Of a stretch of 64,000 bases of DNA, positions 4,668 through 49,492 are shown one piece after another. Position 1 is the stretch's first letter. Each line of letters begins with the position of its first letter. This DNA is from Camillea tinctor (lineage: Eukaryota; Ascomycota; Sordariomycetes; Xylariales; Xylariaceae), in NCBI GenBank assembly GCA_022578605.1, contig MU394078.1:248001-312000 (forward strand), written 5' to 3'. A program made the translations under genes and the position numbers. The notes beneath the pieces are model-generated. The model did not search any database, had not been told where the DNA came from, and saw only the letters and a program-made list of their open reading frames with translations.

Positions 4668-6646
4668 ATGCATCCTCAACAGGATATCATGTTCGACAAC
4701 GCGACTACTGACCCCCCGCGCTTGGCTTCCATGCCACTGCCCGGATCTATCCTCCAGCAGGTTTACGCCTCTACCACGCCTGCCATGCTCTTTGGGATTC
4801 TCTTGCTAGCTCTGGCTTGTAATAGAGTCTGGACTTGGTACCGTCTCCGTCACATCCCCGGTCCGTTCTGGGTCTCCTTTTCCAAGTATTGGCAGATCAA
4901 GACGCAAATGAAGGGCGATTGGTACTTGGACCTGAAGGAGGTTGGAGACCAGTATGGTACGTGAAAGGGAAAGAAAGTCAATATTACGCATATACTAATA
5001 GTTAAACCAGGCAAGCTATTTCGCATTGGTCCCAACCAAGTCATGACCACAGATGTCGAAGTTATACGACGCATGTCTCACTTTAAATCGCCTTATACTC
5101 GGGGCCCCTTTTACCAGGTGTTCCGATACCTCCCCAACCAAGATCATTCATTCTCCCTGCTAGACGATGCCGAACACACCCGACGACGAACTATTCTAGG
5201 TCCTGGCTATGCAGGTGGCCCACACCTTGAGAACTGTATCGATCGCCAATGTTCACGCCTCATCGACCTCATCGAGCGCAAGTTTGTTTCCACTCCTACC
5301 GAGTACCGGCCCTTCGATATGACCTTGAACATGATACTCTTTACTATCGATTGTATCGGCGATATGTCCTTCGGCGGAGACTTCGGCTACCTAGACGAAG
5401 GGGAGGATACTTACCGATTCATCAAGTGGAACGAAGATTTCTTTTATGCCGCCATTGTCATCTCCAATTACCACTGGCTGATCAAGATAGCCTCCAAGCC
5501 AATTTTGAACTGGGTCTACCCAACAGTCCAGTCCAAGCACGGCATTGGTAAATTCATTGGGTATGTCACGAGAAAAGAGTCCTTGGTAACCAAAATTGAA
5601 TCGTGCTGATAATTAAATAAACAACCCCAGGCTCGCTATTCGGGCAGTTGAGACACGTCTTGCTGCGACTGATAAGACACGGAAAGATGCCTTGTCGTTA
5701 TTCATCGACCACGGAGTCAGTAAGCAAGATGCCATTAACGAATTGCTGGTTCAGTTGTAAGTACCATATCTCCCTGAAGCTACTGCGGTTTCACTCATAT
5801 CATAACAGAGTCGCTGGCGCGGATCCAGTTGCCACCGCTATCCGCATGACCATGTTATTCCTGACGTCTAATCCAAAGTCGTACGACAAACTCGTGGCTG
5901 AGATCGATGATGCTATTGCCCATGGTAAAGTAAGCTCGCCTATTAAGGACTCGGAGGCTCGGCAACTTCCATACCTCCAGGCAGTTATCAAGGAAGGTAT
6001 TCGTACATTTCCTGTCGTTACGGCCCCGCTATTCAAGAAAGTTCCTAAAGGTGGCGATGTAATCGATGGCCACTTTGTTCCCGAGGGAACGGAAGTTGGA
6101 CATAACGTCCTTGGTATCATGCGTTCGACCGAGCATTGGGGCGATGATGTTGAGATTTTCCGGCCCGAGAGATGGATCGAGGCAGATGAAAAGACCTACG
6201 ACATGATGAGTAGCGTCCGTGAGTAATTTCGAAATTCATTTATCCCTCATCCGAGACTGTTTCGGGAGTAAAAACACCCCTCCTGGCTCAACGTATAACT
6301 TTTGACTCCCGAGACACAACTTTGAGGGGTAATAGGTTACTTGATATGGCAATTACTGACTCCATTTATCGTAGTGGAAATTCACTGGGGCTCTGGGAGG
6401 TTCAGATGTCTCGGTCGAAACGTCGCCGGGATTCAGCTGAACAAAATGTTTGTCGAAGTAAGTCGGACTTTATTAATCTTGACAGGAGAAACCTTACTGA
6501 TACAGTTCATTGTAAACCAGTTGCTGAGACGTTATGACTTCTCCGTCGCTAAGCCGCAGGCGTCACTAAAAATCGTTAACTCGGGATTCTTTTTGATGTC
6601 GGAACTTGACTTTCGAGTTACCAAGCGAGAGAACTTGGAAAACTAG
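4668..6646 (+). CDS. Cytochrome P450 monooxygenase (pisatin-demethylase-like)
   Basis: Six exons: 4668-4956, 5011-5560, 5631-5756, 5809-6218, 6375-6457, 6506-6646, giving 532 residues, a normal P450 length. A single N-terminal membrane anchor (about 38-52) is followed by the proline hinge HIPGPFW (about 61-67), as in ER-bound fungal P450s. I-helix: VAGADPVAT (323-331). K-helix: EGIR, i.e. ExxR (384-387). PERF-like motif: FRPERW. Haem loop: HWGSGRFRCLG with ligand Cys470. Overall it resembles fungal CYPs of the pisatin demethylase type, which oxidise small hydrophobic substrates with a CPR partner. Substrate unknown. Two oddities: Trp replaces the usual Phe at the start of the haem loop, and Pro follows the I-helix Asp where Thr is typical. 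Intron 4 (6219-6374) is unusually long at 156 bp and belongs to the introner family described separately. An alternative acceptor at 6520 for the last intron would delete five residues in frame. Confidence 0.93.
6219..6374 (+). mobile_element. Introner-like intron, copy A (P450 intron 4)
   Basis: A 156-bp phase-1 intron that shares sequence with two introns of the gene at 46888-49492. Shared parts: 5' end GTGAGTAATTT; an internal hairpin made of GTTTCGGGAGT (6259-6269) and ACTCCCGAGAC (6305-6315), 10 of 11 paired; and a 3' box AATTACTGACTCC (6351-6363). The 5' end and the reverse complement of the 3' box (GTCAGTAATT) form a short terminal inverted repeat that includes the 5' splice site. The other introns of this P450 are 48-70 bp and lack these motifs. 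Confidence 0.75.
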
Positions 6647-6836
6647 GGGGTGCTAATGTAGGAACTGGGTATGGAAGTTCAAATTCAGATATCACGTTGA
6701 ATATGGGCGGTATAGGGTTTCTTGCTGCGCAGTTGTACTTATAATCTTGTCACAATAATAATAAAAGTAATGTGATTAACTTAAGTTATAAAGACTACCT
6801 TAAGCAGTTTCGAAATATATATTTTGATGTCTTGTG

Positions 6837-9800
6837 TTAAGCAGCCCCTGACTTGATCCTCAGTCGAAGCATCTTCTTCAAAAATCTAATGAGGCTGGCT
6901 ACGTTGATAGTTGGTCTGCCTCCCTCAAATTGTTCCATACAGCTCCCATATACGTGCGTAGTAATCGTATCGGCCAGTGTCTTTACATCTCTGCCATTTG
7001 ACCATCCCTTAGTCATGCTAAGCTTGAGGAATAACCGCATCACGGTCTCGATTTCCTTTTGGTCTGGCTCTGGCTCACTGCACAAGTCAATGTCTTGCTT
7101 CTCTACCAAGTTGCGGAGGTGCTTCAGCGAGTGCAACGGGCCTAAGGGCGAGAACTTGATCTCGGTGGCGAAGCGCCCCCGCAGCCCGGCGTTGGTCTTC
7201 ATGAGCTGGTCCATGTCGCGCATATAGCCCGCGAGCACGATGATCATCTTGCGGTGGTAGCGTGGCCTCGTGATGCAGTCAACAATCTCCCCGACCGCCT
7301 CGGCCGCGAAGTCGCTGTTGCCGCGATCTCTACCACCGCCACCGGACCCCAGACGGTACGCCTCGTCGATGAAGAGCACCTTGCCCAGAGCCTGCTCGAA
7401 CAGGTTGACCACCTTCGGCCCCGTTTGCCCCACGTACCTGCCGATGAGGTCCGTCGCCGAGCACGCGATCACCTCGGGCGTCGACAGGAGCCCCATGTCG
7501 TAGAACAGGTTGCCGACTATCTGCGCCGTCTGCGTCTTGCCCGTGCCCGGCGGCCCCTTAAACACGTACGTGAACGGGATCGCTTCCCGCGGGTCCTTCC
7601 CCCGCGCACGCAGGTTCTGCGCCGTCCGCTGGTACCCCTCGAACCGCGCGATCACCTCGTCGAACCCCACGAGCCCGTCGAAGTACGACCGGCACCGCGA
7701 GGTAGCCCGCGCGCCGCGCTCGTGGTCCGGGTCGAAGTCGGCGGGCTCAAGGACGATGGGCGGGGATTCGTGGAGATGAGGATCGCCCCCCTTACTGACA
7801 TTAGTAGACTTCTCGGGCCGCTGCTCCTTTTCCCTCTTCGCCCTATCGCGCTGCCGCCGCTTGGCCTGGTTCAGCAAGTTGACGACATCACCGCCATTGC
7901 CAAAGTTGGGGCGGTCGCGCGCGCGGCGCAGGACCTCGGCGGCGACCTCCAGGGCGGCCTCGGTGGCCGCCACGCCCTCCTCGTCCTCCGCCATCTTGAG
8001 CCGCAGGATCTGCCGCAGCCGCGCGTCGTCGTAGTCAGCGAAGCGGAAGGCGTCCTCAAGGGGGAAGCGCCGCCGCAGGCCCGGGTTGGCCTTCAGCAGC
8101 ATCTCCTCGAGCCGGTCGGCGTAGCCCAGCAGCAGCACGCAGCGGTCGGCGGCGGGCTCGCCGCTCACGCGCGACACCAGCGTGTCGAGCGCGCCGAGCC
8201 GGAAGTCGTCCGACTCGTCGCCCGCGCCCGCCCGGCTGCCGTGGTAGAACATGTGCGCGTCGTCGATGATGAGAACCTTGCCCCGCGTCGAGTCGAGGAT
8301 CGCCGCCGTCCGCGCCTCCGGCTCTCCGATGTACTCCCCTAGGAAGTCCCCCGGCGTCTTGAGAACCACCTCCTCGCTCCCCGACAGCAGCCCCATGTCT
8401 GCGAGCGCCCGCCCGTATAGTCGCGCCGCCGTCGTCTTGCCCGTCCCCGGCGGGCCCATGAATATTCGGTTTAGGGACGTCTGGAGCGGCTTGAGCCCCA
8501 GGATCTCCCGCCGGTAGTTGGCCTTCGCTTGGTCGAAGAGCTGATCGAGAGCCGCCTTGACGTCGTCCAGGCCGGGCATCTTCTGCAGCTCCTTCCACGC
8601 TTCGCTCTTCTCGCGGGCGTCTCCCGGCTCCGGGCCGATGATGTCCTGTCCTTTCAGGAGGGTCTCGTCCGGGGCCGTGTCAACCCAGTGCTCGAGCTTG
8701 GCTTTCTCTTCCTGCAGCCGCGAAGCCTGCCTCTCGAGGACTTTCACGTACGCCGATCGTAGCTCGTGCATGTTCCCGAACCCGCGCTCTTCCCGTCCAC
8801 GGCCCACCCTCCGGGCTAGGATGCGGGAGTACGGCCCCGACCAGCCCCCTTCGATCTTCAAGCCGTCCTGTCGGACAAGCTGGATGAATCTGCACTGGAG
8901 CACGTCGTCATCGTAGTCCTTCAGGTGTATCCTCCGCGAGAACAACCACTTGCCTTCCGGCGCGGCCCCGAGGACCGTCGGCGTGTTCTCGGCAGAGCCG
9001 GACAAGACGACTATCACGCCTTCGGGGAGTTTTCCGAGAATGTTCAGGAAGAGCGCGTAATGGTCGTCATCTACGTGGTCTGCATCCATGATAGATATGA
9101 CCTAAAATTTGTGGGTTAACACCTCTTTATATTTCTTTGTTTTTTATTCCGAGAGAAAAGGGGAAAGGTGTGGATAGACAGAAATGTGACTAAACATACA
9201 CCAGGTTCCGGATTTTCATTAATACTCTCGATCCTCGAAGCGTTCATGAGATGGTGACCAGTCATTTCCACGAATTTGGACATGTGTTTGTCTTGTCCCC
9301 AGACACCGCATTTCCGGAGAAAGTCGTAGTAGAGGCGCGCTAGAGTCCGTTTCCCTGAATTCTGTTGTTAGTTGTGCTTACAGACGTCTTCTCTTATACC
9401 ATGACAGCTGAGCTACGAAATGAATTAGAATTTTTTTGCACTTACCTGTTCCTGGATTTCCTAGAAAGACCATGTTCAGATCTTGCCTCTTCAGATGCCC
9501 CTGACGGCTCCGCCAAGCATCAATGGTCGTTTTGACTCTAAGAAATGCTGCCTTGACATCCTCGAGCCCAAACATGGCCATGGTCATGTCTAGAGCCTTG
9601 TTCTTTTCGCCGAGCTCTGCCTTTTGACGCTTCCACTCGCGCTCCGCAGGCGACTCGACCTTGGTCTTGAACACATTTTCTTCGCTGTCTAGAGAGGGAA
9701 TGCTATCTACGGAATCGTTTGGAGGCGCGACGGCATTGTCGAAAGGGTTGAAGAAAGGCGAAGGCGGTAGCGATATAGTTGCTGGGTCAATGTGCTCAGT

Positions 9801-10307
9801 GTTAAACTCGGATCCAGATTGATCTTCAGCTGATACAGGATGAGGAAGATGGCTAGCATCGTTTCCTACATCCTCCTTGTGGCTATCATTCCCCTCATCA
9901 ATAGAGCCCTGAGATGATGCGGAAGCTGTGGGTGGCGTGGCCTCCCCACTATCTTCAGTTTCACTATCTTCACAGCCGTGTATTTCTGTTATCTCCAGTT
10001 GTGATTCGTTTTGTTGTGTATTTTGGTTCTCTTGGCCATTATCCTTCGTGGGATCAACATCGCCTATGTCCGTAGATAAGTCCGAGGCAGGACTCGGCTG
10101 AGCATTTTTCTCTGTTAGATCATCACGGTTCTCTTCATCATCTAGTGCTGTATTGGCGCCACTTTCGGTGACAGTTGTGTCTGCTGAAGTCGCGGCTTCC
10201 GTCTTCTCTGAAGTTATGTCCTCTGAAGGAAGTTGGTTTGACCCAACCATGTTTGTATTGTCAGATACCGAAAGTCCAGATGGTTCATTCACGGTGCTAT
10301 CGCCCAT
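6837..10307 (-). CDS. Triple-module AAA+ ATPase of the CbbX/SpoVK-like family
   Basis: Minus-strand gene with exons 10307-9446, 9354-9200 and 9101-6837, giving 1093 residues. The introns (91 and 98 bp) interrupt the first AAA module. Residues 1 to about 230 are acidic and Ser/Thr-rich, probably disordered. Three AAA+ modules follow. Module 1 has Walker A GNPGTGK (283-289) but a poor Walker B (ISIMDAD, about 341-347). Module 2 has GPPGTGKTT (about 555) with IIDDAH instead of DE (about 617). Module 3 has GPPGTGKTQ (about 855) and a full VLFIDEAYRL (about 914-923). This layout fits fungal multi-CbbX proteins; bacterial CbbX is a Rubisco activase and SpoVK is a sporulation ATPase, but the fungal role is not established. 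Only the last module looks fully able to hydrolyse ATP. Most of exon 3 (about 7130-8950) is much more GC-rich than its surroundings. It is divergent from the AAA gene at 11404. Confidence 0.88.
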
Positions 10308-11403
10308 TGTGATGATCTAGGACTCGGGTTAGGTATATGACCTAACGCACTCAGGTGAAGATAGGAGAGAGGGAATGAATGGGATGTTGTTGTTTTTAGA
10401 AATTAGAGGTGTTTAGAAATGGCACCAGCGACATTTCTCACGCACATTATAAGGAGACCAGAGAAGCAGCTGACGGGTGGTTTTCTTGGAAAGAAAAAGG
10501 GAAAAGAGTGAATTTGGTATAATGTCAAAAAGCAATTCTTGTCTGCCAGAACCACTTGAACATATCTTGAAAGTATCTATGAGCGAACCAATGGGACGAT
10601 ACTATCAAGACAATTTTCGACCAAGCCTCAGAGATATAAGTATGCCTTACTTCTAGGCAGAATACCGTCTCTAGGATATCGTCCTATAGATCAAGGCAAG
10701 TATTCGATTCACCAGCCCCATGCGACCAGCTAGGCAACACTGCAGCCATGCTGATCAAGGCTCCACGAAGAGCAAGTAGCAGACACTCAATGTCAATATT
10801 ACTTCGTGCCTACCTAGGTAGAAAGCCCCAATAAGATAGAAAAACAGTCATAACATGAGGCTGCCAAACGAACATTGGCATGCACGAGGCACCATGGCTG
10901 AGTCCTGCACAATATGCAGATAAATCCTACTTCCAGGATAGCACCACTTTCCATTTGCTATGAGGTTGATCTAAATCGTAATGACTTTCCAATCATAAAT
11001 CACCGGGTGTTTTCCCCGATGCCTAGTAGCTAATATAGTACAGGGGTCGGCAGGCTGCGACATCTTCATTTGCATCGTGAGTATGTACCTATTTGAATAT
11101 CTATGCTGTCACTATGGAGGCCTCGAGAATGCCTAAGTGATTAGACGAATCGTTGTATAATACTACCCGCAAGACATGCATGGTTTCTACGGCGCAACTA
11201 GGCTACGACAGCGTCCTATGGGGGGTAAAGTGGATTTTGGTGAATATTTATTCTCAACATCAGCAAACCAAGGAACTCTCCAGCATAGAGCCTTTGATCA
11301 CTTGGCTGACTTAGACCTTTGCTTTAAACTATCTACCTATCTACCTATAGGGCGGCGTTTTACTTCACCCAGCCTCGCGCCGCCTAACAGTCATTACTTC
11401 ATC
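10308..11403. promoter_or_regulatory. Shared divergent promoter region between two AAA+ genes
   Basis: About 1.1 kb separates the ATG of the triple AAA gene (minus) from the chosen ATG of the Msp1-like AAA gene (plus). No gene is visible. It contains an exact TACCTAGGTA palindrome at 10811-10820 and TATCTACC repeats near 11330-11350. That it is a bidirectional promoter is inferred from gene orientation only. Confidence 0.4.
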
Positions 11404-12846
11404 ATGACACTACAGAGCCAAGATCCCCTTGAAATTCTACGAGTGGAGTCTTATAAGAATGCGTTGAGAATGTACATCAAAGGCCAGGATTCTGACATCA
11501 AGCAGACCGATGACAACAAGGACTCCGTCGTTCAAAAGCCCGAGAGTGCCTCTGGAACGAATTATAGCGTATCGTCGCCGCCAGATTCACAAACATTGTT
11601 GAGCAAACAAGAGGACCCAACCATTAATATTCTCTCCGTTGATGAGAACGATGGATCTGAAAGTGAAGATGGCGATCCATATTTGGTGGCCGAGAGGAGA
11701 GTCATGGCACAAGGATACCCTCATCCTGCCTGGACTTCCAAGAAGAACTCCAGAGGTCTAGGAGAAGATTCTGACGCGAGTGATTCGGAGCTTGCTAGTT
11801 ACAACTCAAGCGATGACATATACGATAGCGACCTTGAATCGGAAGTCTCCTTTACCTGCTATGCAAGGCGAGAGCACCAGAAAAAGATGAGAAAATGGCG
11901 GTCCCTGGCAACGAACAAACATGAGCACATGCTGCTCGATTGCATTGTTAATATAGGTATTACGCTACGTGCAATTTTTTTCTTGCATTGGTCCTGACCT
12001 ATGCCGCTACTTCTGTGGCTTACAGATGAAATCCCTCCGAACTATGCAGACATCGTCGTCGATAAATCAGTTATCGAAAAACTCGAGAATGTCACTTTTA
12101 CCACCCTTAAGAGGCCTCGGGCATTTAATCACGGTGTGTTGAAGGGAAATCGGGTTACGGGGGCCGTACTTTACGGTCCGCCAGGGACGGGAAAGTCGCT
12201 TCTAGCGAAGTCATTGGCTAAGCAATCCGGGTTTAACATGGTATCTGTCTCAACTGCAGAGATATGGCAGCAATTGCACGGCGAGGATGAAAAGGTTATC
12301 AAAGCATTGTTCTCTATGGGCCGTAAGCTCCAACCGTGCATTATCTTCTTAGACGAGGCCGATGCTATGCTTGGCACCCGACAGGGTGACGAGAAGCGAC
12401 ACATCCGCTCTATGCTGAACCAGTTCCTCATGGAATGGGATGGGCTCGCGAGCGGCTGCGATGCGCCTTTCGTCCTATTAGCTACAAATCGGCCCTTTGA
12501 CCTGGATCTAGCAGTACTTCGGCGCGCTCCTATGCATATCTTACTCAACGTGCCTACACCTCGCGAGCGGGAAGAGATTCTCCGGAAGCTCCTCGAGGGC
12601 GAAACACTAGGCCCCGGAGTCACGCACTACACGTTGGCACAGCGCACACAGTACTACACGGGTTCAGATCTCAAGAATATGTGCGTCGCTGCGGCTACGA
12701 GCTGCGTGGGCGAGCAGAGCGTAGACACAGAGGCACGGATGTTGATGTGGAAGCATTTCAACAAGGCTATGGAGACTATCAAGCCGTCAAGTCAAGGTGA
12801 TACGGGGAAAAGCAACTTTCAAAAGTTCGGGAGACATGCCAACTAG
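11404..12846 (+). CDS. AAA+ ATPase, Msp1/ATAD1-like catalytic domain
   Basis: Exons 11404-11956 and 12026-12846 (intron 11957-12025) encode 457 residues. The first ~180 residues are acidic and Ser/Asp-rich with no membrane segment. The AAA domain has Walker A GPPGTGKS (235-242), Walker B IIFLDEAD (about 290-297), sensor-1 region ATNRPFDLD and an arginine-finger region RRAPMH. The last of these lacks the second basic residue usually seen in RRxPxR. The stretch before Walker A (RPRAFNHGVLKGNRVTGAVLYG) is typical of fungal ATPases related to Msp1/ATAD1, which extract misplaced tail-anchored proteins. Without an N-terminal membrane anchor, however, this protein is more likely one of the soluble, expanded fungal AAA proteins of unknown substrate. 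The frame is open back to 11176 without a better ATG, so 11404 is chosen. Confidence 0.85.
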
Positions 12847-14510
12847 ACTGATGGACATGTAAAACTTGCAACTCGACTTTCATATCATGTACCTACCGAG
12901 AAAAGCTTGAGGACATCTATCATGTATTCAGATATTAATGTTCACTCTTAAATGGCAAATTCCAGTCGTACCGATTAGAGAACATCCAGGGTATGTGTGA
13001 TAGGGATACTTTCCTATGTTTCTAACCTAGTACACGGCAGTTTTTTTTTCGTATTATATACTACATCCTAACGCCTTGAAAAGTGTTTCTCTTCAGTGAT
13101 GTGGGCAAAGTGTCTTGTTATTGGCTCAGGTCGAGCGTTTGGTGGTTTAATGGTCGTGCGTTCCCCTCTTTGAGTGAAATCGTAAAGCCTATAGATGATC
13201 AACAATAACAAATCACGTATAACCCTTATGATAGTGGAGAGGAGCCCTCAGCTGCTTTTCCTGCTGATGCCTAGACCCAATCATCAGCTCCTCCGCCGAC
13301 CAGAAAGCCAGGGAATCTTTGGCTAGGCAATGAAGCCAAGCATCATCTCCAGCACCTCTTCTCGTTGGTGATCGACGATAGTTCCCTATGTGTTTGTCAC
13401 CAGGATCACAACTGAATATCTGAAATGAGGAATGAGAGCTGCATCAAATATTCTAAGTTTAGAAGAAAAGCCTCCTCAGACAACATTGCTATATAACCTA
13501 TAGCCTGCTATTTCCATCGCGTAGAAGTGCATCTGTTCAGATATAGGATACCAGGTAATGGAAAACAAGCACCGTCAGACTTAGTTATGCTACTCAAAGG
13601 AAACATACCAGAAGTTTCGATAAAATTTCAAACTTTTTACCTTAAGACTATATTTTGTGCTCAGAGGAGTCACTTCGTATATAGGAGATTGTATCTCGTA
13701 AACTTTGATGATTTTTATGTTGTTAATTTAGGGAATATAAAGAGGAGGCCCATAAGGTAACTTTTTAAGGTATATCTATACTGAGTCTTGGATTCATTGT
13801 TTTCCCAAATTGCCCAAGTAGTCCCCGCTAAAGGATGATATCCACACCCGTGTTTATTGAGGCGCATAACAAGAAGTCACATTCAAAAAGAATGTATAAT
13901 AATCAAACATGGAAGCTTATCCGTCTCCTGTAAACTGATCATATCATACTCAAAAGTACTGAAGCAAAAAGGAAAACTAGTGTATAGGTAGCGCTACCCT
14001 TATACATGTGGTCTGTCTTTAATGAAGCAGAAACACGCGGAAATGATAATGCTTAAAATTCCACCCATTGGACCCCTGTAGGTTAGCTGGAATAACTCCA
14101 CTGGCGAGTCACTTGAAACAGGCGGCCCTTGCAACAACACGAACACACTTGACCAAATACGGCACTATGAATCCTTCTGATTGGTCGGACCCCAACAAGA
14201 TCATCCTTAGGGCTTAGAAATGCTGGGAATGGCCTCCTTACCAGCACTATAAACCAGACAATGAGGTCTTGGTATACTGATGGCAACTAGCTGGTGAGAT
14301 GACAGGAGTAGATAGTATGGCTCGTGCATTTTATATATATCGACAGTAAGTCTGCCGTGTAAGAAGATACGATTTTCTACCTTTTTGTTTCCAACAGGCC
14401 CGTCAGTTGTTGTGTCTTTTCACGTTCATTCATTAGCTGGTGATAACGTTGATCCCATTCCATTCTTTTATACATCCCGCAGGGCGAGATATTCTATTTC
14501 TTTGGCCACA
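12847..14510. other. Intergenic region, no gene seen
   Basis: About 1.7 kb of AT-rich DNA with only short unconvincing open frames on both strands. A TATATATAT stretch at about 14331-14340 lies some 175 bases before the ATG at 14511 and may serve that gene. Confidence 0.6.
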
Positions 14511-16175: not shown

Positions 16176-16684
16176 ACGATCATTGAGTGAGAGAGTACAT
16201 GTATATCCACTCAGGTATATAGGTATAAGAAAGAGAGCAGATCTGTAGAAGATGTATGCTTTATAAATTCCTGTATATAGCATTAGTCTTATAAGCTCGC
16301 AAGGTCATACATGCGTGTACTTTTTGATAATCTTAGCATATTGCACTCTTGACTGGCCAAATAATAGATGCATCTTTGAAATATGACAAGCCAAACAAAA
16401 AGAATATCTACCCAGGTAACTCAATAGATATCTATCAGTCATGTATAAAAGTATTATATCGTCGTCTATAATACATATATGCAGATCAGACCAACCTCTG
16501 CTTAAAAGCATAAAGTGGGTACATTTATGCATACCACGATATGCAATTTCAGTACCCTAAATATGTCTTTAAGCAACTCAACTTCATTTCATCTCATTTC
16601 ATAATTTCAATCGTTTTTCTACACAAAGACAAGTTCATCGGGATTTGATCCTTACAATACTCTTAGCAGAGGAAAATATCAGGA
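16176..16684. other. Intergenic region, no gene seen
   Basis: About 0.5 kb of AT-rich DNA between two same-strand genes. The last 100 bases carry repeated TTTCAT/TCATTT words before the next ATG. No open frame is convincing. Confidence 0.55.
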
Positions 16685-17788: not shown

Positions 17789-17792
17789 TACA

Positions 17793-36900: not shown

Positions 36901-37125
36901 CAGCAGCTCGAGCTGGCCATAATACCTATATAGCAAATCCCGCCCCGCGGTGCTGTCCTTCCCGGCACCCCGCATATCTTGTCGCAGCCGGTTCAAGGTG
37001 GCGCACTCCTCTGCATACCTCTCCGGGTCATCCCCATAGGTATCTCGGATATAGGTCTTCAGTGGAGTGATCCAGTCGATCTCGTTGGTGGCCTTTAAAG
37101 GCACGGAGAGCATGGGAGTCTGCAT
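33949..37125 (-). CDS. BRO1: BRO1-domain endosomal sorting protein Bro1/Vps31
   Basis: Minus-strand exons 37125-36851, 36783-36354, 36285-35134 and 35079-33949, 995 residues. Bro1 binds ESCRT-III (Snf7) on endosomes, stabilises it and recruits the ubiquitin hydrolase Doa4 during multivesicular-body sorting. The N-terminus SVPLKATNEIDW and the segments GRDLLYRYYGQLELLDLRFP, FTWFDAFTH and FEKASIIFNISAVLSCHAA are textbook BRO1 domain (about 1-390). A helical V domain follows to about residue 740 (QELEKFRPHQNRLLQANHKQ-like segment), then coiled coil, then a Pro/Gln/Tyr-rich tail (about 800-995) with PPPPPPGPPP. The C-terminal end SDPWAGLSAWK is typical of filamentous-fungal Bro1 rather than the related palA/Rim20. 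The start at 37125 (MQTPMLSVPLK) is preferred; an in-frame ATG at 37263 would add a low-complexity leader encoded by hexamer repeats and is unlikely. Confidence 0.96.
36315..36341. repeat. TA dinucleotide repeat inside BRO1 intron 2
   Basis: A run of TA units (TATAAATATATATATATATATATATA-type) lies within the 68-bp intron 36286-36353, close to the donor. A plain microsatellite; likely length-variable between strains. Confidence 0.7.
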
Positions 37126-37263
37126 CGTGTCGTTGAACGTTCGCCGGTTCAGGTTCGAGTTCGGGCTGGGGTTCGGGCTGGGGTTCGGGCTCAGGCTCAA
37201 GCTCAAGCTCAAGCCTAGGTTCAAGTCTGACAGTTCAAGACGGCGACGGCGATTGTAAGACAA
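37126..37263 (-). repeat. Hexamer-repeat leader upstream of BRO1
   Basis: On the plus strand, 37150-37216 is a set of degenerate repeats of GGTTCGGGCT and CTCAAG units (GGGCTGGGGTTC twice, then CTCAAG three times). Read on the minus strand in frame with BRO1 it would encode alternating Leu-Ser and Pro-Asn. It most likely lies in the 5' UTR. Confidence 0.6.
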
Positions 37264-40200: not shown

Positions 40201-40388
40201 CGAGGGGATCATTAAGCCGACCCCAGCAACGCCTCATGTGAGCCCCCCTATTTTCTATGTCTAACCTGTGCAATATCCTCACACGTCGTCGGCCATCCTA
40301 ATCCCCTTCAAAATATGGTACAATGCTTCCCCTGGTCGGCCGTTTTCTGTTTTCGCCGTGCAGTATATACGTGGGAAGTCTGACAACT
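37264..40388. other. Long intergenic region rich in TAGG/CCTA repeats
   Basis: About 3.1 kb between BRO1 and the 3' end of MDJ1. At 37541-37625 there are many GTAGGTAGGTA and TAGGCAGG units, and CCTA/TAGG words recur (38140-38160, 38515-38530, 39710-39735). A G/A-rich strip occurs at 39000-39030. No open frame resembles a protein on either strand, and no tRNA-like B box was found. Confidence 0.6.
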
Positions 40389-42187
40389 TTAGCTCGAACC
40401 GGTATTATTCTTAGACTGATTATCCGATCGGTCACCAGTCTGGTTCTTATCGCTAGATGACTGCTCCTCATTGCCCTTGTGAGCAGGATGGTTTGTTAGG
40501 TTATGCCATATCGACTTCAAGAATCCTTCGTTTTGATGTGAGGCAGGATCATCGTCTTTAGATGCTTCTCCAGGTGACGTGGGTCTACATTCTCTTTGTC
40601 AGCCATAGTTCATATATATATCCTAGTATGTTCGTTGAAGAAAAACTTACGCTGGCCACTTTATATTCATGATTCGCCTAGCTGTCTTGTCGCCCATCTC
40701 ATCCGCCAACATCTCTACGATGGTGCGTTGGTTTGAAGAGAGATATTTAGGCATCGTTACCCGGAATTCGACCTTCAGGTCGCCCGATCCGCCTCGTCGA
40801 GCGCCAAGCTTTTTCATGCCCTTGCCAGGTAGCGAGATCTTGTCGCCAGTGTTGGTACCCGTTGCCACCTTGACCGTAACTTCACCTTCCAATGTAGGGA
40901 TAGTCACTTCACCACCCAACAACGCTGTCGTCAGCGGGAGGCTCGCCGTGTAAAGTATATCAGAGCCGACTCGCTTGAATCTTTGGTCGGGTGCGACTCT
41001 GATTAGGACGTAGAGGTCTCCCTTCGCTATCTTGGCGTTGTGATCGGCCGTACCGCCAGTAATAGGGGCATCGCCTTCTCCATCCAACCGCAACCTCATA
41101 CCGTCCTCAATACCTGCGGGGATATCGACAGTGATGGTCTTGCGTTCCCTAACAGCACCATTCCCAGCACAGGTTCTACACTCCGACCCCCGGGGTGTCG
41201 TCTTACCAGTACCCCTACACGTGCTGCACGTACTAGCCATTTGGAAACCCCCAGTCATGAAATGAACTTGATTACCGGTTCCACCGCAAGTATAACATGA
41301 AGACCGCTTGGTGCCTGGCTTCATGCCGCTTCCTGAGCAAGTACTACAGGATACCATGGGGTGTATCGTGATGGTTTTGCTAGTGCCCTTCGCCGCCTCC
41401 ATGAAGGAGATGTGTGTTTGTACCTCGATGTTTTCTCCAACGAACGTCTCAAAGGAACCCCGACCGCCGTGCTGGCCACCAAAGGGACTACCCTTGCCAC
41501 CGGTGAAAGCCGAGAATAGATCTTCAAAGTTGATATTCGCGCCAAAGCCACCGCCGAAGCCTGAGAATGGATTGCCCGCTCCGCCAAACGGATCACCAGC
41601 CCCAGGGTGGGGTGCCCCATTGGGATCGAATCCGGCTGCGCCAAATTGGTCATACTGTTCCTTCTTCTGAGGGTCTGACAGGATTTCGTATGCCGATTGG
41701 ATCTCGGAGAACTTGTCCTTTGCTGTCGGGTCCTTGTTGGTGTCAGGGTGATATTTTTTCGCTAAGCCGTAGTAGGCCTTCTTGATATCTGAGGATGTAG
41801 CCGACTTGTCTACACCCAATGCTTTATATGGATCTTTGATGGCGAGCGCTCTAGGTGTCGCATGGAAAGATTGCTAGAGGAGGAATACGGTGTTAGTAAA
41901 ATGGAAGAAGAAAAAAGTGTGTGAATAGCATCAAGTGGGGTGAGAAGGAGAAGGGGGGAGGAGGAGGGGCAGCATACTCGTTGTTGGAATGAGACCTGGC
42001 ACACTGGTCGCACGCATGGTCTCTGTGGTCTTGCCGTGAACGAGGAGGCAGAGCGAGATTGTATAGCACCTTGTATAGCACCTTGCCGTCTCAGATTGTG
42101 TTTTAGTCTCTGTTGTCTCCGACATATCTGGGCCGGAGTCAAGATGCGCGAGGGCAGCGCCGCCTTGGTAATGACGCTAGAGTTCAT
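40389..42187 (-). CDS. MDJ1: Mitochondrial DnaJ/Hsp40 co-chaperone Mdj1
   Basis: Minus-strand exons 42187-41978, 41873-40651 and 40584-40389, 542 residues. Mdj1 stimulates matrix Hsp70 (Ssc1) in folding imported proteins and maintaining mtDNA. The first ~75 residues are Arg/Ser/Gln-rich, lack acidic residues and form a matrix-targeting presequence. The J domain starts at DPYKALGV (84-91), with HPD at 112-114. A Gly/Phe-rich linker follows ([16 protein letters not shown]). The zinc domain has four CxxCxGxG-like repeats: [24 protein letters not shown] and the weaker CRTCAGNG. Two peptide-binding beta domains follow to KWPAPTS. The final exon adds a polar, Ser/Asn/Asp-rich tail, which is usual in fungal Mdj1. 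All three junctions keep the frame ([21 protein letters not shown]). Confidence 0.96.
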
Positions 42188-43828
42188 CTTGTAAGTGGGA
42201 AATCAAATAGAAACGGACTAGTAATTGTATGAAATTTTCATAACATGTCTACTTGGGAATGTATAGAAATAAAAATTGACACGTGAAAGAGTGTGTGATG
42301 TTTTTTTTTTCTTCGTTTTCTGTTTTGTTCGGATTGAGCAAAAAGAAAGAAAATAATAGAAGAAAAATTTGAGCTCGTTAATCGAATATGATCTTGTCGC
42401 GATGACGCTCCAACTTTTTTTTTTCTGCACTAAAAGACCGATGCCGAGAGAGCGGGAAGCTTCTCCAATGATCCAATGATTCAATTCGTCCTCCCGGTCT
42501 TCGGTCTTCGCTGCCTGAGGCCGTACCTCTGCAAAATGTCTATCTATTGATTGGTTCAGCAAGCCTGCAGCTAGCTCTAGACCTGCCTTGTAGTACCTAC
42601 CTACATAAGGCTAGTAAGTAAGTTACCTAGACACACTGGCGTGCTCCCGTCCTCACTTTCTGCGACTTACTAATACATATAGTGCAGATAGACCTCAATA
42701 TCTTCCAAGGTTGTGGCAGGTCATTGATATCCGATCTTCTCCCGCAAGAATACCAAGATAAAAAACCCCTCCTTATCTGCACCTACCCTGACCCCACCCT
42801 TCCTCTACTATACGATACGAGTCTAGGATTGTGGTACGGAGTATAGTCTATAAAGTATATACACTACATACCTAGGTAATTGAGGTAGATGGAAAAGGCT
42901 TGCTCATAATGAAAAGTTTTAACTAAGCCTTATCTTCGTAAAAGTTTTGGTATCTGGAGAACCAAACAATCCATTATGTCTATCAATGGATTTTAACCAA
43001 ATACCATCGCATTATACATTATACACCATGGAAAAGTGACAAATGTAGAACACTCTCGCGTCAAATTGGGGGTTAGGTAAGAGTTAGCTTGGTCGGCGAG
43101 GCGCGCTAAATCTAAGTGGTTATAGACGTACCTAACCTACCTCATAGCGGTCTTAAAGCTCCGGTCCACCGTTCCTTATCAAGGATAGGCACGCCGTGCA
43201 ACCCTTGGGTCAGCAGAACTTTAATTGTTTTCCCAGGTTCAGGTCGTACATCTTTTTCTTTTCTTTTTCTTCTTCTAATTGCACTAGCCATATGTAAATA
43301 ATAAATACTAAGTCTTAATATATATATATTGACTACAACTACCTAAGATATTTCCCTATAATGTCCTCTTTTTTTTTTCGTGCAAATCATGTGCTGTCAT
43401 GACCGTCAATATTTTACTGTGCCTAATAAGGTTATGTATTCCGACTTTTATAGGTTAAAATGAGGTGGGTATCCTTCAATTCATCATCGGTCCCCAAATT
43501 CCCCCGTCATATGATAAAGACCCGCCTGAACGCTAAAAACTCCTATGCAGATGCAAAGCGGAAAGGGAAGAGGAAAAAAAAGGGACAAGGAAAACACAAT
43601 TGGTTGTTGCAGCGTTTTCTTCAACACAAATCAAGTACCCGAAATCCACATATACCCTTTCAACTCCTATTGCCGTATATGTATAAAAGAAATGAATCTG
43701 TAGAAATCGAACAAGAATGTCCTGTCGTATGTGTGTATATACGTTCGCTTGTATGTTGGTTTAGTTATTTGTTTGTCCGTTCGTTCGTTCGTTCGTTCGT
43801 TCGCTCTTTTACGGCATGCATGAGCCAT
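42188..43828. other. Intergenic region with simple repeats, no gene seen
   Basis: About 1.6 kb between the 5' end of MDJ1 and the 3' end of the SAP30-like gene. Contains poly-T runs at 42300-42310 and 42415-42423, an exact TACCTAGGTA at 42869-42878, a TA run at 43318-43330 and a (GTTC)n tetranucleotide repeat at about 43773-43803. Open frames here are low-complexity. Confidence 0.6.
43773..43803. repeat. (GTTC)n microsatellite
   Basis: Six to seven tandem GTTC units (cGTTCGTTCGTTCGTTC...) lie in the 3' flank of the SAP30-like gene. Confidence 0.85.
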
Positions 43829-44470
43829 TCAAGGTAGAGGAGATGAGTGCGGTGCATTCTTATTCCTCCTCACCCTGACAACACCGGGGTTCCTGACCTT
43901 GTGGAGAAACCCGACGATGACATCGTTTTCCTGGATGCCCACGTCGTTGAAATGCTTCCTCACTGCCTTGGTAAGGTCCTCTTTGCTCTGTCGCCGGTAC
44001 TCTTGTCTTCGTGCCATGGTGGGCGAGCGCAGGCCGATGCCGGGTCGCGAAAGGACCCAGTAGTGGTATGAGTTGGAAAAGGCGGTTGGCGTGTCGAGGC
44101 GGTGCTCGCGACGGTAGTCGTGTAGGACGTCTCGGTCGAAGCTTGCCCAGCGAAGCTAGAAACAAGAGGACAATCGTCGTCAATTTCCAGCTGAGCTGAG
44201 ACATCTGTGTTGGTACTGCAGAGCGGTACAATGGTTGCTTACCCCTGGAGTGTTGCTAGGTTGTGTGACAGCCTGGGTTGCTGGTGGTGCGGTCGACGAA
44301 CCGTTGGTAGCGTGAGCATCTCGCAGCTGGGAGCCCGTAGAACTTCCTACTCGTCGCATCTTGCCGTTGGTCTGGTGGTGATTGTTTGAGCCGTGACCAT
44401 TGCGCTCCTTGACGTTCGCCGTCTCCGGCTTGGAGTCGTCGTGGTTGGCTTTCGATTTGGCTGGCGGCAT
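43829..44470 (-). CDS. SAP30-like Sin3 histone-deacetylase complex subunit
   Basis: Minus-strand exons 44470-44243 and 44155-43829, 184 residues. The N-terminal 76 residues are polar and disordered (Asn/Ser/Thr-rich). Exon 2 carries the conserved part: DRDVLHDYRREHRLDTPTAF, YHYWVLSRPGIGLRSPTMARR and KEDLTKAVRKHFNDVGIQENDVIVGFLHKVRN. The last segment fits the Sin3-binding C-terminal domain of SAP30, whose core is a (V)xxHFxxxxVxExDxxxxFxxxVxN pattern. SAP30 bridges Sin3 and Rpd3-type deacetylases in transcriptional repression. The protein is at the small end for fungal homologues and ends in a short basic tail (RVRRNKNAP). ATG 44470 (MPPAKSKAN) is chosen over a longer upstream frame starting near 44623 that has no matching character. 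Identification rests on pattern memory of the C-terminal domain. Confidence 0.75.
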
Positions 44471-45297
44471 TGGGGATGTATTTCGGATCAAAGAACTGCG
44501 GGAATCAAAGCGGAGGAGAAACTCAGACTCGAAGGAATCATTCCTAGGATTGTCAATGTGGAACTGCAATTCGCAGTATAAGAAAGAAAAGAGATAAGAG
44601 AGCCGAATATGTTGTGTAGGCACATCAGTGGGTGTGATTAGTCAAGAGGGGAGAGAAGAAGAGGAGAGGAGAGGAGAGGAGAGGAGAGGAGAGGAGATAG
44701 GGAAAGCTGACCGACAGACAATACAAAAAATACTACATTACATAGTACATAACCGTAGGTTAACTAAAAGACAGGGCTCACATGGTCTGTTCCATCGGGG
44801 ACCTTTTTTTTTTTTTTTTCTCCTTCTCTGGCTGGTCCAGCCACCAATGACGACACTTACAATGGGGCAGACCACTTTACTACCGAGCTCGGACCCTGCA
44901 TTTGGAAAGCCGTAAAGTGGGGAGGGAAAATAAAGACCACTCGTGACACCAGATGAAAGTCTATCAGAGTTGGTCCATGGGCGATCCCACAACCTAGTTT
45001 GATTTGAAAACGTCGATTGGCTGATAAGTGATAAGGCCTAAAAATAAATAATAATGAGATTATAGTGTACAACTATACGTCCCTTCCACAGACTCGTGCT
45101 TGACTTGAAAATTAAGCTTTCGCTTATACAAAGAAGAAGTATTGGCATAAACTTAAAAGTCTTCTTGGGTCTTGGGTATCTGTGTAAGTACTTAAGTACC
45201 AACATAACCTACATAGTAGTGCCATGTGGTTTATAAGTTGTAAATCACAACACAAAGAACCTTTAGGACTTCACATGCAACACCTTTGGAATCCCCA
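44471..45297. other. Intergenic region with GAGGA repeat and poly-T
   Basis: About 0.8 kb. Apart from the GAGGA microsatellite and a poly-T run at 44806-44820, nothing gene-like is visible. Confidence 0.55.
44661..44697. repeat. (GAGGA)n pentanucleotide microsatellite
   Basis: About seven tandem GAGGA units, in the presumed promoter of the SAP30-like gene on the minus strand (CT-rich there). Confidence 0.85.
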
Positions 45298-45963
45298 TCA
45301 TGGAACTAACTGAGGCCGAGCCAACGTGAACCCGACCAGAGTAACCTGCTGTCCCAGTCGATGGAGTTGCGTATCAGGCTCTGTCCACACTCTAATACGT
45401 TTGAACCCGAGTTTTTCGAGCACTCTCTGGCTGCCGACATTCTCTATATCAGCATTGGCGTATATGTGCTCTTCCGTCTCACCGGCCCCAATCGCCAATG
45501 AAAGTATTTCCACATCGACAGCTCGTCGGGGGAGATGCCACCAAGCGTCCAGGATGCCGTGTAGGAATTCCGTTGCATATCCCCGGCCCCAATACTCTCT
45601 CTTAATTTTGTATCCGATTTCCGGCCATCCTACATCTGATATGATTGAATGCACGCCGCCCTCTCCAATGAACTCCCCAGTCGAGGCAAGGAATACTCCA
45701 AAGAGGAAACTCCTTTCTGCTGAGTTGATGAGAGATGCAAGGACCACCCGTGTCTCCTCAAGGTCGCGGTCAATCTTGCCTAGTCTTGTCCCCGCCATAG
45801 CTTCGGGTTGGGTACGGAGTTCGTGAAGTGATTGAACATCTCCATGTTGAAGGGGTCGAATGATAAGCCTTTCCGTCCGAATTATCGAGCATTTCAAATC
45901 TTGAGGCAAGGGTATCGTTGGAAGTGTAGTCGTCACAACACGGGTACCCGATTCTGCCGTCAT
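45298..45963 (-). CDS. GNAT-family N-acetyltransferase (RimJ/RimL-like)
   Basis: Single-exon minus-strand gene, 221 residues from ATG 45963. The N-terminal half carries TERLIIRPLQHGDVQSLHELR, the standard start of Acetyltransf_3 proteins. Next comes FIGEGGVHSI, then WPEIGYKIKREYWGRGYATEFLHGILD, which contains the acetyl-CoA-binding pattern (Q/R)xxGxG/A as REYWGRGYA. The final ANADIENVGSQRVLEKLGFKRIRVW is the usual C-terminal helix-strand (N-x-x-S-x-x-V-L-E-K-L-G-F). These enzymes transfer acetyl from acetyl-CoA to an amino group; fungal members of this group are mostly uncharacterised, so the substrate is open. Between strands 4 and 5 there is a small insertion (IGAGETEEHIY). Upstream codons contain only a TTG, so ATG 45963 is used. 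Confidence 0.88.
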   Translation of the reverse strand: MTAESGTRVVTTTLPTIPLPQDLKCSIIRTERLIIRPLQHGDVQSLHELRTQPEAMAGTRLGKIDRDLEETRVVLASLINSAERSFLFGVFLASTGEFIGEGGVHSIISDVGWPEIGYKIKREYWGRGYATEFLHGILDAWWHLPRRAVDVEILSLAIGAGETEEHIYANADIENVGSQRVLEKLGFKRIRVWTEPDTQLHRLGQQVTLVGFTLARPQLVP

Positions 45964-46887
45964 TGGGGGCAAGCGTCGATATGATCTATCAAGCGCTTTG
46001 GCGAATTGTCCTATGCACTATGCATTTGTCCTTCTATGAAGTGTCAAACTCAACATGCATTTGGGGTGACATTCCTTCTACTGCGGCCTGCTCCCGTGTG
46101 ACTCACTCAGAGACGCGCATCTTAGTTTCACATAAGCCGGGCTGGCAAGCTGGCTATCTACGCAACTAAACAGGTGGGTCACACCAAACAGCTACCTATA
46201 TACTTCTATACTTCTCTCATTTCTTTATAGACAAGGAAACGAAGAAGACGCAAGAATGAAGTGACTAGGTTAGGTATATGGACACCAACACCAGACGGAA
46301 TTGCTTGAGGATTTATGCGAGAGTGAATGCCTGATGAAATAGGGGCAAATTGGACAACAGTCGAATTTTATCTACTATACGAAGATTTCATTACCTCATA
46401 TGCATTATGAACATTTTAGTCCACCCTATTTACCACACAGCAGCAGTATAATTAGAGGTGGAATTCCTATCTAAAACATCAGAGCCACCCAGCTTGGTAT
46501 CCTTAAGCCCACTGCTTAATACCGTATGCAACGGGCCGGTGCACATCAGATGATATTGAGCTCAGGTCAGGACCGACGAGAAGACAGTGGCATACTATTA
46601 TGGACGTTGCAGTATGTATTTAGGTTTGCTTTCAAGACGCTCATCCCATTACCTTTGCGCAAACAGGTTTGTCAAATTGATATGAGAAGCCCGTCACCCC
46701 AATGGTTGACGATAGAAGGGGTAGATAGGCAAGCTGAATGGTATTAAATACTAAGCACTTTGCCCTTCTTCTCTCTCCTTCATCTCTTGATCTTATGATC
46801 TCACGAAAACATAGCATAGCATCTTTTTGACTCTCTAAATTTTACTCCAAAACCATCTCTACTGTCTGAATAACAATCTGAGCCATC
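45964..46887. other. Divergent intergenic region
   Basis: About 0.9 kb between the acetyltransferase (minus) and the kinase/HAD/UPRT gene (plus). No gene. A CT-rich stretch (CCCTTCTTCTCTCTCCTTCATCTC, 46761-46784) about 100 bases before ATG 46888 is a likely core-promoter element. Confidence 0.5.
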
Positions 46888-49492
46888 ATGGCCACCCCGA
46901 AGGAAAAGCCGATAGTCGTCGGCTTGTATGGGGTTCCAGGGTCTGGAAAGACTTACTTGTTGCAGCATCTTCAGAAAGAGCTGTGCTTAGAAGAAATCAA
47001 ATTCTACGAGGGCTCTGAAGTTATTGTCAGTCTTACCACTGGGGGCCTAGATGCGTTTCGCAGGCTAGATGAGCAAGAGAAGCTTCGCATCCGGCAGCTC
47101 GCAATTAGTCGTATCAGACAAGAGTGTCTTGACAACAGATGTGCCGCCGTTGTCACTGGGCATTTCAGTAAGCAAACTCTCTGTACAATCTTATATGTAG
47201 CTTGTCTGTTCTCGTTGGTGTACCAGGGCGTGGTATTGCTGAGCATGTTGGTTCGTACTAACCCATGACTTGTAGTGTTCTGGCCTGAAGGACAGGTCAG
47301 TGGCGAACCTGTGTATACGCAAAAGGACCTCGAAATATACACACACATTCTTTATCTCGATGTCCCAGCCTCAGAAGTCAGGAAGCAGCGCCAAAATGAT
47401 ACTAGCCGAAGTCGACCAGCTCTATCTATCGAGCATCTCGAGAAATGGCAGGCAGAAGAAAAGGCACAAATACGACGCCTCTGCTACAGCAACAGAATCT
47501 TATTTTCTGTTGTTTCACCCCCATTCCTTGACCGAGTCCAGGAACTCATCCGTGACTTCTGCCGTCATACCGAACAACGCAATATCAACTTGGCCAAGGA
47601 GAAGCTGGACAGTCTACTTCCAAGCGCCAGTAGTTCTTTAGAGACGATTCTAATAATGGATGGCGACAAAACTTTGAGTGCCGAAGATACTGGGTCGAGT
47701 AAGTTTTTAAGCTACTTTGCTATACGTTTAATCGTTTGATCACTGGCAACATCACTCTACGTCATAATCAAAATAGTATTTCCAATTTCGTTCCTACAGT
47801 CCTGTTTCTATGGAAGTTCTCTCTAACTAAAGTCAATATACCTAGTGTTTTGGTCAATGTGTCGAAAATCTGGCGCCACTGAAGAGTGCCCTTTGAAGAG
47901 GCTATTCAGTAGTCCCATGGAATATAGTCATACAGCTTTTCGTCAAGCATCGCTGCTATATGAAGACCGCAACTCTGGGGAAGGGGACTACGAAGATGTT
48001 TGTGAAGAGGTAGCAACCAAAGCCTCCATATATCCTGAGTTCCTCTTGCTTCTGAAGCAGATTGAAGTGCAGCAACATGTCCAGTGAGTAGATTCTGGAG
48101 TCGTTTAATCCCCCCCTTTGGCCTGTCTCGGCCTGGCTAGGAGTCGAAATTTCCTATTATAATGAGGCGTATGAGTTCATGGGAGTTTGGACTCCCGAGA
48201 CAACGACCTCAAGAGTAGAAAATTACACAATATCGCAATTACTGACTTCCATTACCACAGTGTCATCGTCCTTACTTGCGGCATTGGGCCTATTTGGCAG
48301 AAAATTATTCATAAAGCAGGGCTTTCGAATTCTGTGGATGTTATTGGAAACGGCTTTGGTGATGGAGTCGTTGTCACACCCAAAGTAAAGGCTACTCTCG
48401 TCTCACACTTACAAGTCGTGCACAACCTGTACGTGTGGGCTTTCGGCGACAGCCCATTAGACCTCCCGATGCTAGCGGAGGCCGACCAACCCATCATTGT
48501 GGTGGGTGAGGAGATGAACAGGAGCCGTACAATGGACGGTGCCTTATTGAAAGCCCTCGATAGGAAGACTCTTCGCCATCCTCGTCAAGTACTCTTGCCC
48601 AACACAGCATCCCCACGACTAGATAAAACGAAGCTTCCAGTAGTCGGACTTTCCGATGGCGATCTGATTGATTTACTTATAAGTCGACGTGCTCATCTCC
48701 ATGTCATACATGCAACTGGCAAGAATGCGGCTAAGTTGCTCATGACGCCAACCCGTGATGCGGAATGTGCCGGGCCTGATCTCATCAAGGCGCATCGTCA
48801 TATCGGGCGATACCTAGCAACGGAATATATAGCAGAGCTAGTTGGTGTTGAAGACTACCCCATCAACCACGTCCAAGGCCATAAGACTAGCGGGTACAGA
48901 TTCTGTGATGAACAGAAAATACTAATTGTCGCCTTGATGAGGGGAGGAGAACCCATGGCGAATGGCGTCTTCAAAGTGCTGAAGCGGGCCAGATTTTTGC
49001 AGTGAGTAAATTTGGGAGCTATTAACCTCCTCCTCATCCTCCTCCTCTCTTCTCCCTCTCCTCCCCTTTTCAGCCTTCTCGAGAGTCAAAGCTTCCTATC
49101 ATCGCTCCTAAGATACGGTCTCAAGAGTCAAAAAGTTACCCGCTATGAGATTTACTGACTCCCATTGTTGTAGTGCAGACAATCCCGACGATATCAAGAG
49201 TCGGCACTTACAGCAACGGACCACAGTAGTCCTTGTAGATTCGGTGATTAACAATGGAGATACGGTGGTACGGTTCGTCAAGCATGTACGAGCCCTGCAC
49301 AAAAGCATCCGTATCATCATTGTCGCCGGAGTTGTGCAGAAGAATGCGATTTCAAGGGGAGCCTATGCGAAAGAATTATCTAGTTACGAAGACATAAGTC
49401 TAGTTGCTCTACGAATCTCAGGCAACAAATTCAAGGGTCACGGCATGACAGATACAGGTAACCGGCTATTCAACACTACAGATCTTGACTAA
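46888..49492 (+). CDS. Three-domain fusion: P-loop kinase, HAD phosphatase and UPRT-like phosphoribosyltransferase
   Basis: Exons 46888-47167, 47276-47698, 47846-48083, 48261-49001 and 49174-49492 encode 666 residues. Domain 1 (about 1-200) is a small P-loop nucleoside/nucleotide-kinase-like domain: GVPGSGKT (15-22) preceded by IVVGLY. Domain 2 (about 215-430) is a HAD-superfamily phosphatase of the phosphoserine-phosphatase type: IMDGDKTL (nucleophile Asp222, acid/base Asp224), motif II VIVLTCG, and motif IV FGDSPLDLPML. Domain 3 (about 455-666) resembles uracil phosphoribosyltransferase: AGPDLIKAHRHIGRYLATEYI, ALMRGGEPMANGVF, and VLVDSVINNGDTVVRF in the place of the PRPP loop. A role in pyrimidine or nucleotide salvage is inferred; the diverged PRPP loop leaves activity uncertain. 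Introns 3 (48084-48260) and 4 (49002-49173) are long and homologous to each other and to P450 intron 4. Confidence 0.85.
48084..48260 (+). mobile_element. Introner-like intron, copy B
   Basis: 177-bp phase-2 intron. 5' end GTGAGTAGATT; internal arms GTCTCGG (48125-48131) plus GGAGTC (48140-48145) facing ACTCCCGAGAC (48191-48201); conserved CTCAAGAGTA; 3' box AATTACTGACTTCC (48237-48250). The pentamer CAGTG occurs exactly at both junctions (48082-48086 and 48258-48262) and spans the splice sites, like a target-site duplication. Confidence 0.75.
49002..49173 (+). mobile_element. Introner-like intron, copy C
   Basis: 172-bp phase-2 intron, same phase and same CA|GTGAGTA...AG|T junctions as copy B. 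5' end GTGAGTAAATTTG; a CT-rich insert (about 49027-49072) is private to this copy; shared segments are TTCTCGAGAGTCAAAGCTTCCTAT-type (with copy B), CTCAAGAGTCAAAA, and the 3' box ATTTACTGACTCCC (49150-49163). Junction pentamers are CAGTG (49000-49004) and TAGTG (49171-49175). Confidence 0.72.

Follow-up and report, generated by a model that had tools for sequence, protein, structure and literature searches.

A stretch of 64,000 nucleotides (nt) of the Camillea tinctor genome (contig MU394078.1, positions 248,001 to 312,000; the window hereafter, numbered from its first letter) holds three introns of similar sequence in two unrelated genes, one encoding a cytochrome P450 and the other a kinase/HAD/UPRT fusion. 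These introns probably belong to an introner family of C. tinctor, that is, to canonical GT-AG introns that have been copied into many genes and that prefer to insert between A and TG (A^TG, the caret marking the intron position). The three introns and their host genes are as follows.

4668..6646, + strand: host gene 1, cytochrome P450, five introns (54, 70, 52, 156 and 48 nt), 532 aa, homologues found
6219..6374, + strand: putative introner copy 1, intron 4 of the P450 gene, 156 nt, exon junction ...GTCC^TGGAA
46888..49492, + strand: host gene 2, kinase/HAD/UPRT fusion, four introns (108, 147, 177 and 172 nt), 666 aa
48084..48260, + strand: putative introner copy 2, intron 3 of the fusion gene, 177 nt, exon junction ...TCCA^TGTC
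49002..49173, + strand: putative introner copy 3, intron 4 of the fusion gene, 172 nt, with a CTC-rich expansion, exon junction ...TGCA^TGCA

An earlier note on this DNA had described the three introns, and the sequence bears out their coordinates, their lengths of 156, 177 and 172 bp and their common start GTGAGTA. They can be aligned along their whole length, a profile built from them matched these three alone in the window (next E = 7.6), and pairwise local BLAST of their 3' halves gave E = 4e-7, 3e-5 and 1e-3; the CTC-rich stretch of copy 3 also matches simple repeats of the window (best E = 3e-5, local BLAST). The 3' box that the note had placed in all three, ATTACTGACTCC, is exact in the P450 copy alone, and the two UPRT copies carry the variants ATTACTGACTTC and TTTACTGACTCC. 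Among the other introns of both genes, those of 48, 52, 54, 70 and 108 nt lie within the 48 to 108 bp that the note had given for most introns of the window, and UPRT intron 2, with 147 nt, lies outside it. A 24-nt CTC/CCT-rich expansion lies near the 5' end of copy 3 (49002-49173) and is absent from the other 39 copies of the genome-wide alignment A2. The Rfam search of the window gave no match.

Copies across the genome

The genome searches covered the 44.7 Mb of C. tinctor itself, and DNA queries and pattern searches, when pooled, gave at least 111 places after merging, spread over 57 contigs. Of these places, 91 were read (51, and 40 fetched afterwards) and 20 are known from the search match alone; one place, C65:42162, was found solely by using itself as query. 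With UPRT intron 3 as DNA query, all of the best 40 of 49 candidates matched, itself included, the weakest at E = 5.2e-14, and the matches of a typed family consensus were the best 40 of 100 candidates. More diverged copies used as BLAST queries recovered fewer places, self included (eight for P450 intron 4, three and one for two other copies). Pattern hits far outnumbered those in reversed controls, with at least 60 against 1 for the 3' box, at least 60 against 0 for the 5' box, 30 against 0 for a 3' variant and 18 against 0 for the centre. The similarity of the three window introns is thus far beyond chance, and the genome search that the note had set as a check found many further copies in unrelated genes, including P450, GH13, sulfatase, monooxygenase and SDR genes, which supports its introner reading. 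Capture-recapture from two lists of at least 60 places each, 25 of them shared, gives a rough estimate of 144 copies. Ten 10-kb stretches picked without regard to copies held none (100 kb; best E = 0.91), which agrees with a density of about 2.5 per Mb, at which 0.25 copies would be expected in that sample.

In the alignment of 85 copies, similarity reaches 88% in the closest pair and has a median of 72% over all pairs, and the median copy is 84% alike to the consensus; near-identical pairs are absent, and judged from these sequences the spread of the family is old. C>T changes in the copies, viewed in the context of repeat-induced point mutation, stand at 21% before G and 20% before A versus 12% before C or T. 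Two loci are unusual: L104 (C74:52240-52480) is a family copy with the donor ATGAGT in place of GTGAGT and is possibly non-canonical or broken, and L043 (C8, around 577605) fits the family profile in its 3' part and not in its 5' part, as in 'sheared' stwintrons.

Several observations indicate that the copies are spliced as single introns in the sense direction. The P450 and UPRT reading frames stay open once copies 1 to 3 and the other introns are removed (532 and 666 aa), and the longest upstream and downstream frames agree after GT..AG excision in 40 of 48 copies, where one third is expected by chance. The sense-direction flanks score better as coding in 43 of the 48, and in 14 of them both flank strands score at or under zero. 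Deposited C. tinctor proteins, a P450 and a kynurenine 3-monooxygenase, run exactly across the predicted junctions with the copy absent; the former, P0121, is the closest match of the window P450 and is identical across the copy 1 junction. Gaps are absent from both UPRT junctions (121 aligned rows) and from the P450 junction codon (80 rows), so the insertions are seamless. For the UPRT fusion, the closest of the best 120 matches listed is from Biscogniauxia mediterranea (72%), and no C. tinctor protein is named among those 120. Elsewhere in the P450 gene, P0121 lacks five residues after KMFVE that the 48-nt intron 5 (6458-6505) keeps, so the deposited model splices differently there. P0242, a partial protein labelled Phytophthora cactorum, has 82% identity to the fungal monooxygenase, probably through contamination of the record.

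Copies also lie near one another more often than a uniform scatter predicts, with 10 pairs within 1.5 kb among 112 places versus 0.42 expected, all ten in the same orientation; three of the ten (contig C65) depend on copies met via a fetched neighbour, and seven remain without them. Similarity between the two UPRT copies is 65.7%, which places them at the 17th percentile when all pairs are ranked, the nearest relative of UPRT intron 3 (88% alike) lies on a different contig, and ten same-window or same-locus pairs fall between the 3rd and the 70th percentile of similarity among all pairs. Since copies in one gene resemble each other no more than other pairs do, they appear to have inserted separately rather than to have been duplicated locally.

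The insertion site

Exon flanks were compared in two sets, the first comprising the 41 full-length GT..AG copies among 54 distinct hits that scored 25 bits or more against the profile, and the second, held-out set 36 of 40 loci, after exclusion of L076 and L110 (mini-copies, described below), L099 (5' end unmatched) and L104 (ATGAGT). In the first set, position -1 is A in 28 copies, +1 is T in 39 and +2 is G in 35; the corresponding counts in the held-out set are 14, 28 and 20. Pooled (n = 77), -2 is C or T in 56, -1 is A in 42, +1 is T in 67 and +2 is G in 55. An A^TG junction is seen in 33 of the 77 copies versus 1.71% of 51,450 positions in open reading frames (ORFs; p = 1.4e-37), and YA^TG in 29 versus 0.72% of the same positions, which were taken from ORFs of at least 300 codons in the fetched DNA, overlapping loci being counted as they lie.

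A general splicing preference for A^TG was considered and is rejected by predicted ordinary introns (n = 45, median 68 nt), of which 12 have T at +1 and three have an A^TG junction; the difference at +1 (67/77 versus 12/45) gives a Fisher p = 2.3e-11. This control has an error of its own, as reversed sequence yields 7 calls against the 45 real ones. With shorter flanks T at +1 was found in 17 of 55 (28 reversed calls) and with longer flanks in 8 of 30 (4 reversed), and two stricter controls of 10 and 20 introns contained no A^TG. The A^TG preference probably belongs to the insertion step and not to splicing in general.

Whether the target was there before the intron can be asked of host genes with known homologues, and in three of them the ATG preceded insertion, since the homologues have the junction Met too. 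These clear cases are GH13 (hit twice), sulfatase and monooxygenase. The full GH13 copy splits the Met of GFRMDV, which is common to four displayed oligo-1,6-glucosidase PDB alignments (GFRMDV or GWRMDV), three of them variants of one enzyme, and a 55-nt mini-copy in the same gene leaves the joined exons MKLMMDLVVNH, where homologues have MKLIMDLVVNH or MKIVMDLVVNH. The sulfatase copy splits the Met of TLMAGKWHLG, identical in four displayed variants of one arylsulfatase, and the monooxygenase copy splits a Met that is present in 83 of 119 other aligned proteins (85 of 121 with the query and its deposited protein).

UPRT introns 1 and 2 (47168-47275 and 47699-47845) both have A^TG junctions and go unrecognised by the family profile; they may be decayed introner copies. 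Tentatively, and with a confidence that falls somewhat short of probable, we suggest that the machinery reads YA^TG in pre-existing coding sequence and inserts one intron without duplication, and that the A^TG footprint outlives the sequence of the intron, in which case part of the ordinary introns may be decayed introners that could be counted.

Hairpin symmetry and mini-copies

A typical copy has about 178 nt, with the start GTGAGTAATTTTTGGAGTC, the centre GTCTCGG...GGGAGTC...GACTCCCGAGAC and the end CAATTACTGACTCCCATTATTACAG; all 40 copies of alignment A2 start with GT and end with AG. Comparison of the consensus with its own reverse complement reveals an imperfect inverted repeat of about 33 nt, set back from the two ends by 4 nt and 2 nt, and the consensus is symmetrical along most of its length. 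As RNA it folds at -57.6 kcal/mol (z = -5.05), and when real copies were folded at least five terminal bases were paired in 30 of 40. The consensus structure pairs 84.1% of cells in the real copies, structures that were slid along them drop to 31-43%, and RNAalifold on the alignment returned 7 pairs only. In copy 2 the relevant parts are placed as follows.

48088..48102, + strand: 5' arm of the near-terminal inverted repeat, from donor nt 5 onwards (sequence, consensus self-alignment and fold)
48240..48246, + strand: putative branch site TACTGAC, in a box common to the family
48244..48258, + strand: 3' arm of the near-terminal inverted repeat, which overlaps the CTGAC branch site and stops 2 nt short of the intron end

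Three introns of 55-59 nt consist of the family ends only: L052 (C64:207412-207466), L110 and L076. A mismatch-free genome pattern for such forms returned two of these three and no others. L052, which shares the GH13 gene with one full copy, is flanked by long open frames of 107 and 114 codons; L110 and L076 have 11-12 upstream codons in hand, and the 3' end of L076 was chosen by us. The exon junction is A^TG in L052 and L076 and not in L110.

Movement and origin of the family

How fungal introners move is debated, with reverse splicing, DNA transposition and other routes under discussion. For the Camillea family, the evidence best fits a sequence of events in which a palindromic founder would have given rise to canonical GT-AG spliceosomal introns of about 178 nt with a CTGAC branch site, whose excised RNA could pair at its ends into a stable hairpin. 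Through splicing in reverse, this RNA would enter another transcript or an R-loop, preferably at the A^TG point of a YATG already present in coding sequence, and would then be copied to DNA and fixed, so that each new copy would be exactly one intron in the sense direction, seamless and without target-site duplication (TSD). We infer that there is an RNA intermediate, that the hairpin plays a role and that some agent reads A^TG; reversal of splicing appears to fit best because the inserted unit equals the excised unit, duplication is absent, and the copies lie in sense and mostly in coding sequence.

A number of points weigh against this interpretation. Inverted terminal repeats fit DNA transposition too. 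The site preference is weaker at -1 in the held-out set (A 14, G 10 of 36) and fades in the most diverged third of copies (A^TG in 6 of 27). Homologues do not always have Met at the junction: among PDB homologues of the monooxygenase the top-scoring one shows E there, one of three displayed chains for the SDR gene has Met, and the 80 rows at the P450 junction divide into V (41), L (28), I (10) and A (1). UPRT intron 3 sits at H followed by V, where nearly every displayed homologue has other residues (mostly G/A/R/S and next A), so YATG need not have pre-existed there. The fold has z < -2 in just 22 of 40 copies, and compensatory change keeping the hairpin is not above shuffles (84.1% of cells paired versus 84.2%), which gives no sign that the hairpin matters after insertion; our reading is that the founder was a hairpin, from which the copies inherited their pairing and have drifted. 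Splicing is argued from frame and from two deposited gene models, and the evidence comes from a single genome.

Comparison with published systems, which follows the descriptions in the article texts, bears on where the family came from. Repeated sister stwintrons of the [D1,2] type are known in Xylariales from Hypoxylaceae and Xylariaceae, and they share with the Camillea family that they are sequence-similar introns multiplying in this order (PMC8469720, PMC9024468, PMC12403724). The text of the 2025 study covers 14 Xylariales genomes, with Camillea and Biscogniauxia not among them (PMC12403724). Further likenesses are a comparable length (184-207 nt in the examples given; about 178 nt in Camillea), terminal symmetry with paired near-terminal repeats from donor nt 5, seamless insertion without TSD, and a few genes with more than one copy; the pairable near-terminal inverted repeats expected of stwintrons were found in the Camillea consensus by fold and self-alignment. 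Stwintrons are, however, two nested introns, whereas one canonical intron is excised in Camillea. Their 3' repeat lies 2 nt before the HAG acceptor, while that of Camillea reaches to 2 nt from the intron end and overlaps the branch site, and their integration is reported to be seemingly random, whereas Camillea introners prefer YA^TG. A nested structure with the external donor split after its first G was considered for the Camillea introns and rejected, as both window genes and 40 of the 48 copies stay in frame when one GT...AG unit is removed; the base before GTGAGT, which this test concerns, is A in 42 of 77 copies.

The Hypoxylon type-2 cropped introns CO27-5/EC38 are canonical, symmetrical and multiplying as in Camillea, and they arose by internal deletion like the Camillea mini-copies (PMC8469720). 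These two examples differ in having 93 nt with a central 10-nt palindrome, where the Camillea full form has about 178 nt and symmetry along most of the consensus, and in their unbiased insertion sites, unlike the YA^TG of Camillea (PMC8469720). The family could thus descend from sister stwintrons of Xylariales, with a stwintron converted to a canonical symmetrical intron, as in the Hypoxylon cropped type, that was still multiplying in Camillea. This story of origin is compatible with reversal of splicing and does not compete with it. The common order, the similar paired repeats from donor nt 5 and the ends-only derivatives as in Hypoxylon speak for such descent, which we nevertheless regard as rather unlikely, given that the published families are described as seamless and without insertion-site bias (PMC12403724, PMC8469720, PMC9024468) and that neither the published 10-nt repeat NTIRE-10 (GUAUAAAAAC with its partner) nor the 10-nt palindrome TTTCTAGAAA has an exact match in the 85 copies. 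Five published forms of the repeat and palindrome, tried with one mismatch on the same copies, gave 1, 0, 0, 0 and 2 hits.

The main rival to reversal of splicing is blunt DNA insertion, in which a non-autonomous element akin to a miniature inverted-repeat transposable element would be placed at CA^TG by a transposase or recombinase and spliced when it lies in sense within a gene. The near-terminal inverted repeats, imperfect and about 33 nt long, qualify as terminal inverted repeats of such an element, and the preferred CATG is itself a palindrome with the insertion at its centre. The inserted unit is, however, exactly GT...AG, 43 of the 48 tested copies are in sense to the better coding strand, no copy was met in the 100 kb sampled without regard to copies (where just 0.25 were expected), and the half-sites are unequal (A at -1 in 42 of 77 versus T at +1 in 67 of 77). 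Nor is there a duplication of the kind made by cut-and-paste transposons. The exonic A and TG beside the intron's GTG and AG produce an apparent AGTG direct repeat; if this were a 4-bp TSD, the message would lose one base on splicing and the frame would shift by one, which the frames and the conserved Met, present without extra bases relative to homologues, exclude. On balance we consider this rival unlikely.

A rolling-circle element of the Helitron type, inserted between host A and T without target duplication, would account for both the position and the absent duplication. Canonical Helitrons start with TC and end with CTRR. The 40 copies of A2 have GT and AG ends throughout, with TC and CTRR ends absent, and a Helitron is accordingly very improbable. 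Chance similarity or local gene conversion, the alternative raised by the earlier note, draws on the fact that two of the three window copies share one gene and has a negligible likelihood in view of the at least 111 places genome-wide, the position of the UPRT pair (65.7% alike) and of the other same-locus pairs among all pairs, and the closest relative of UPRT intron 3 lying elsewhere, on which grounds gene conversion is rejected.

Beyond the Xylariales, the introner-like elements of Dothideomycetes are, like the Camillea family, repeated canonical introns with a predicted stable structure and seamless insertion (PMC4457414; van der Burgt 2012 via PMC8469720). Compared by description, they belong to a different fungal class and have an AG/GY preference, as cited in PMC8469720, in place of YA^TG. 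The introners surveyed across eukaryotes are also gene-enriched repeated introns, and the ascomycete families described there are without terminal inverted repeats or TSDs, whereas in the Camillea family imperfect inverted repeats (about 33 nt) are present and a TSD is absent (PMC9860276). The site choice suggested for Camillea differs both from the random reverse splicing that has been proposed for introners of fungi and from transposition that makes a TSD.

A literature search of article texts found no description of the Camillea family. The earlier note had called introners notable in what it took for a Sordariomycete-like genome; the placement is right, as Camillea belongs to the Xylariaceae, Xylariales, Sordariomycetes (NCBI taxonomy), and the novelty was overstated, as repeated stwintrons of 14 Xylariales genomes and derived canonical Hypoxylon introns were already published. 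Mobile introns in Xylariales are therefore known, and the Camillea family is a site-preferring kind among them; its preferred target, the hairpin formed by its consensus and its mini-copies go beyond what the note had described. Camillea itself is a genus beyond the 14 genomes of the 2025 stwintron study. The ends-only derivatives of 55-59 nt show a route from an introner to an ordinary-looking intron, and a sharp pre-existing target site makes the mechanism of introner movement testable, because the mechanisms under debate predict different target reading, symmetry and orientation.

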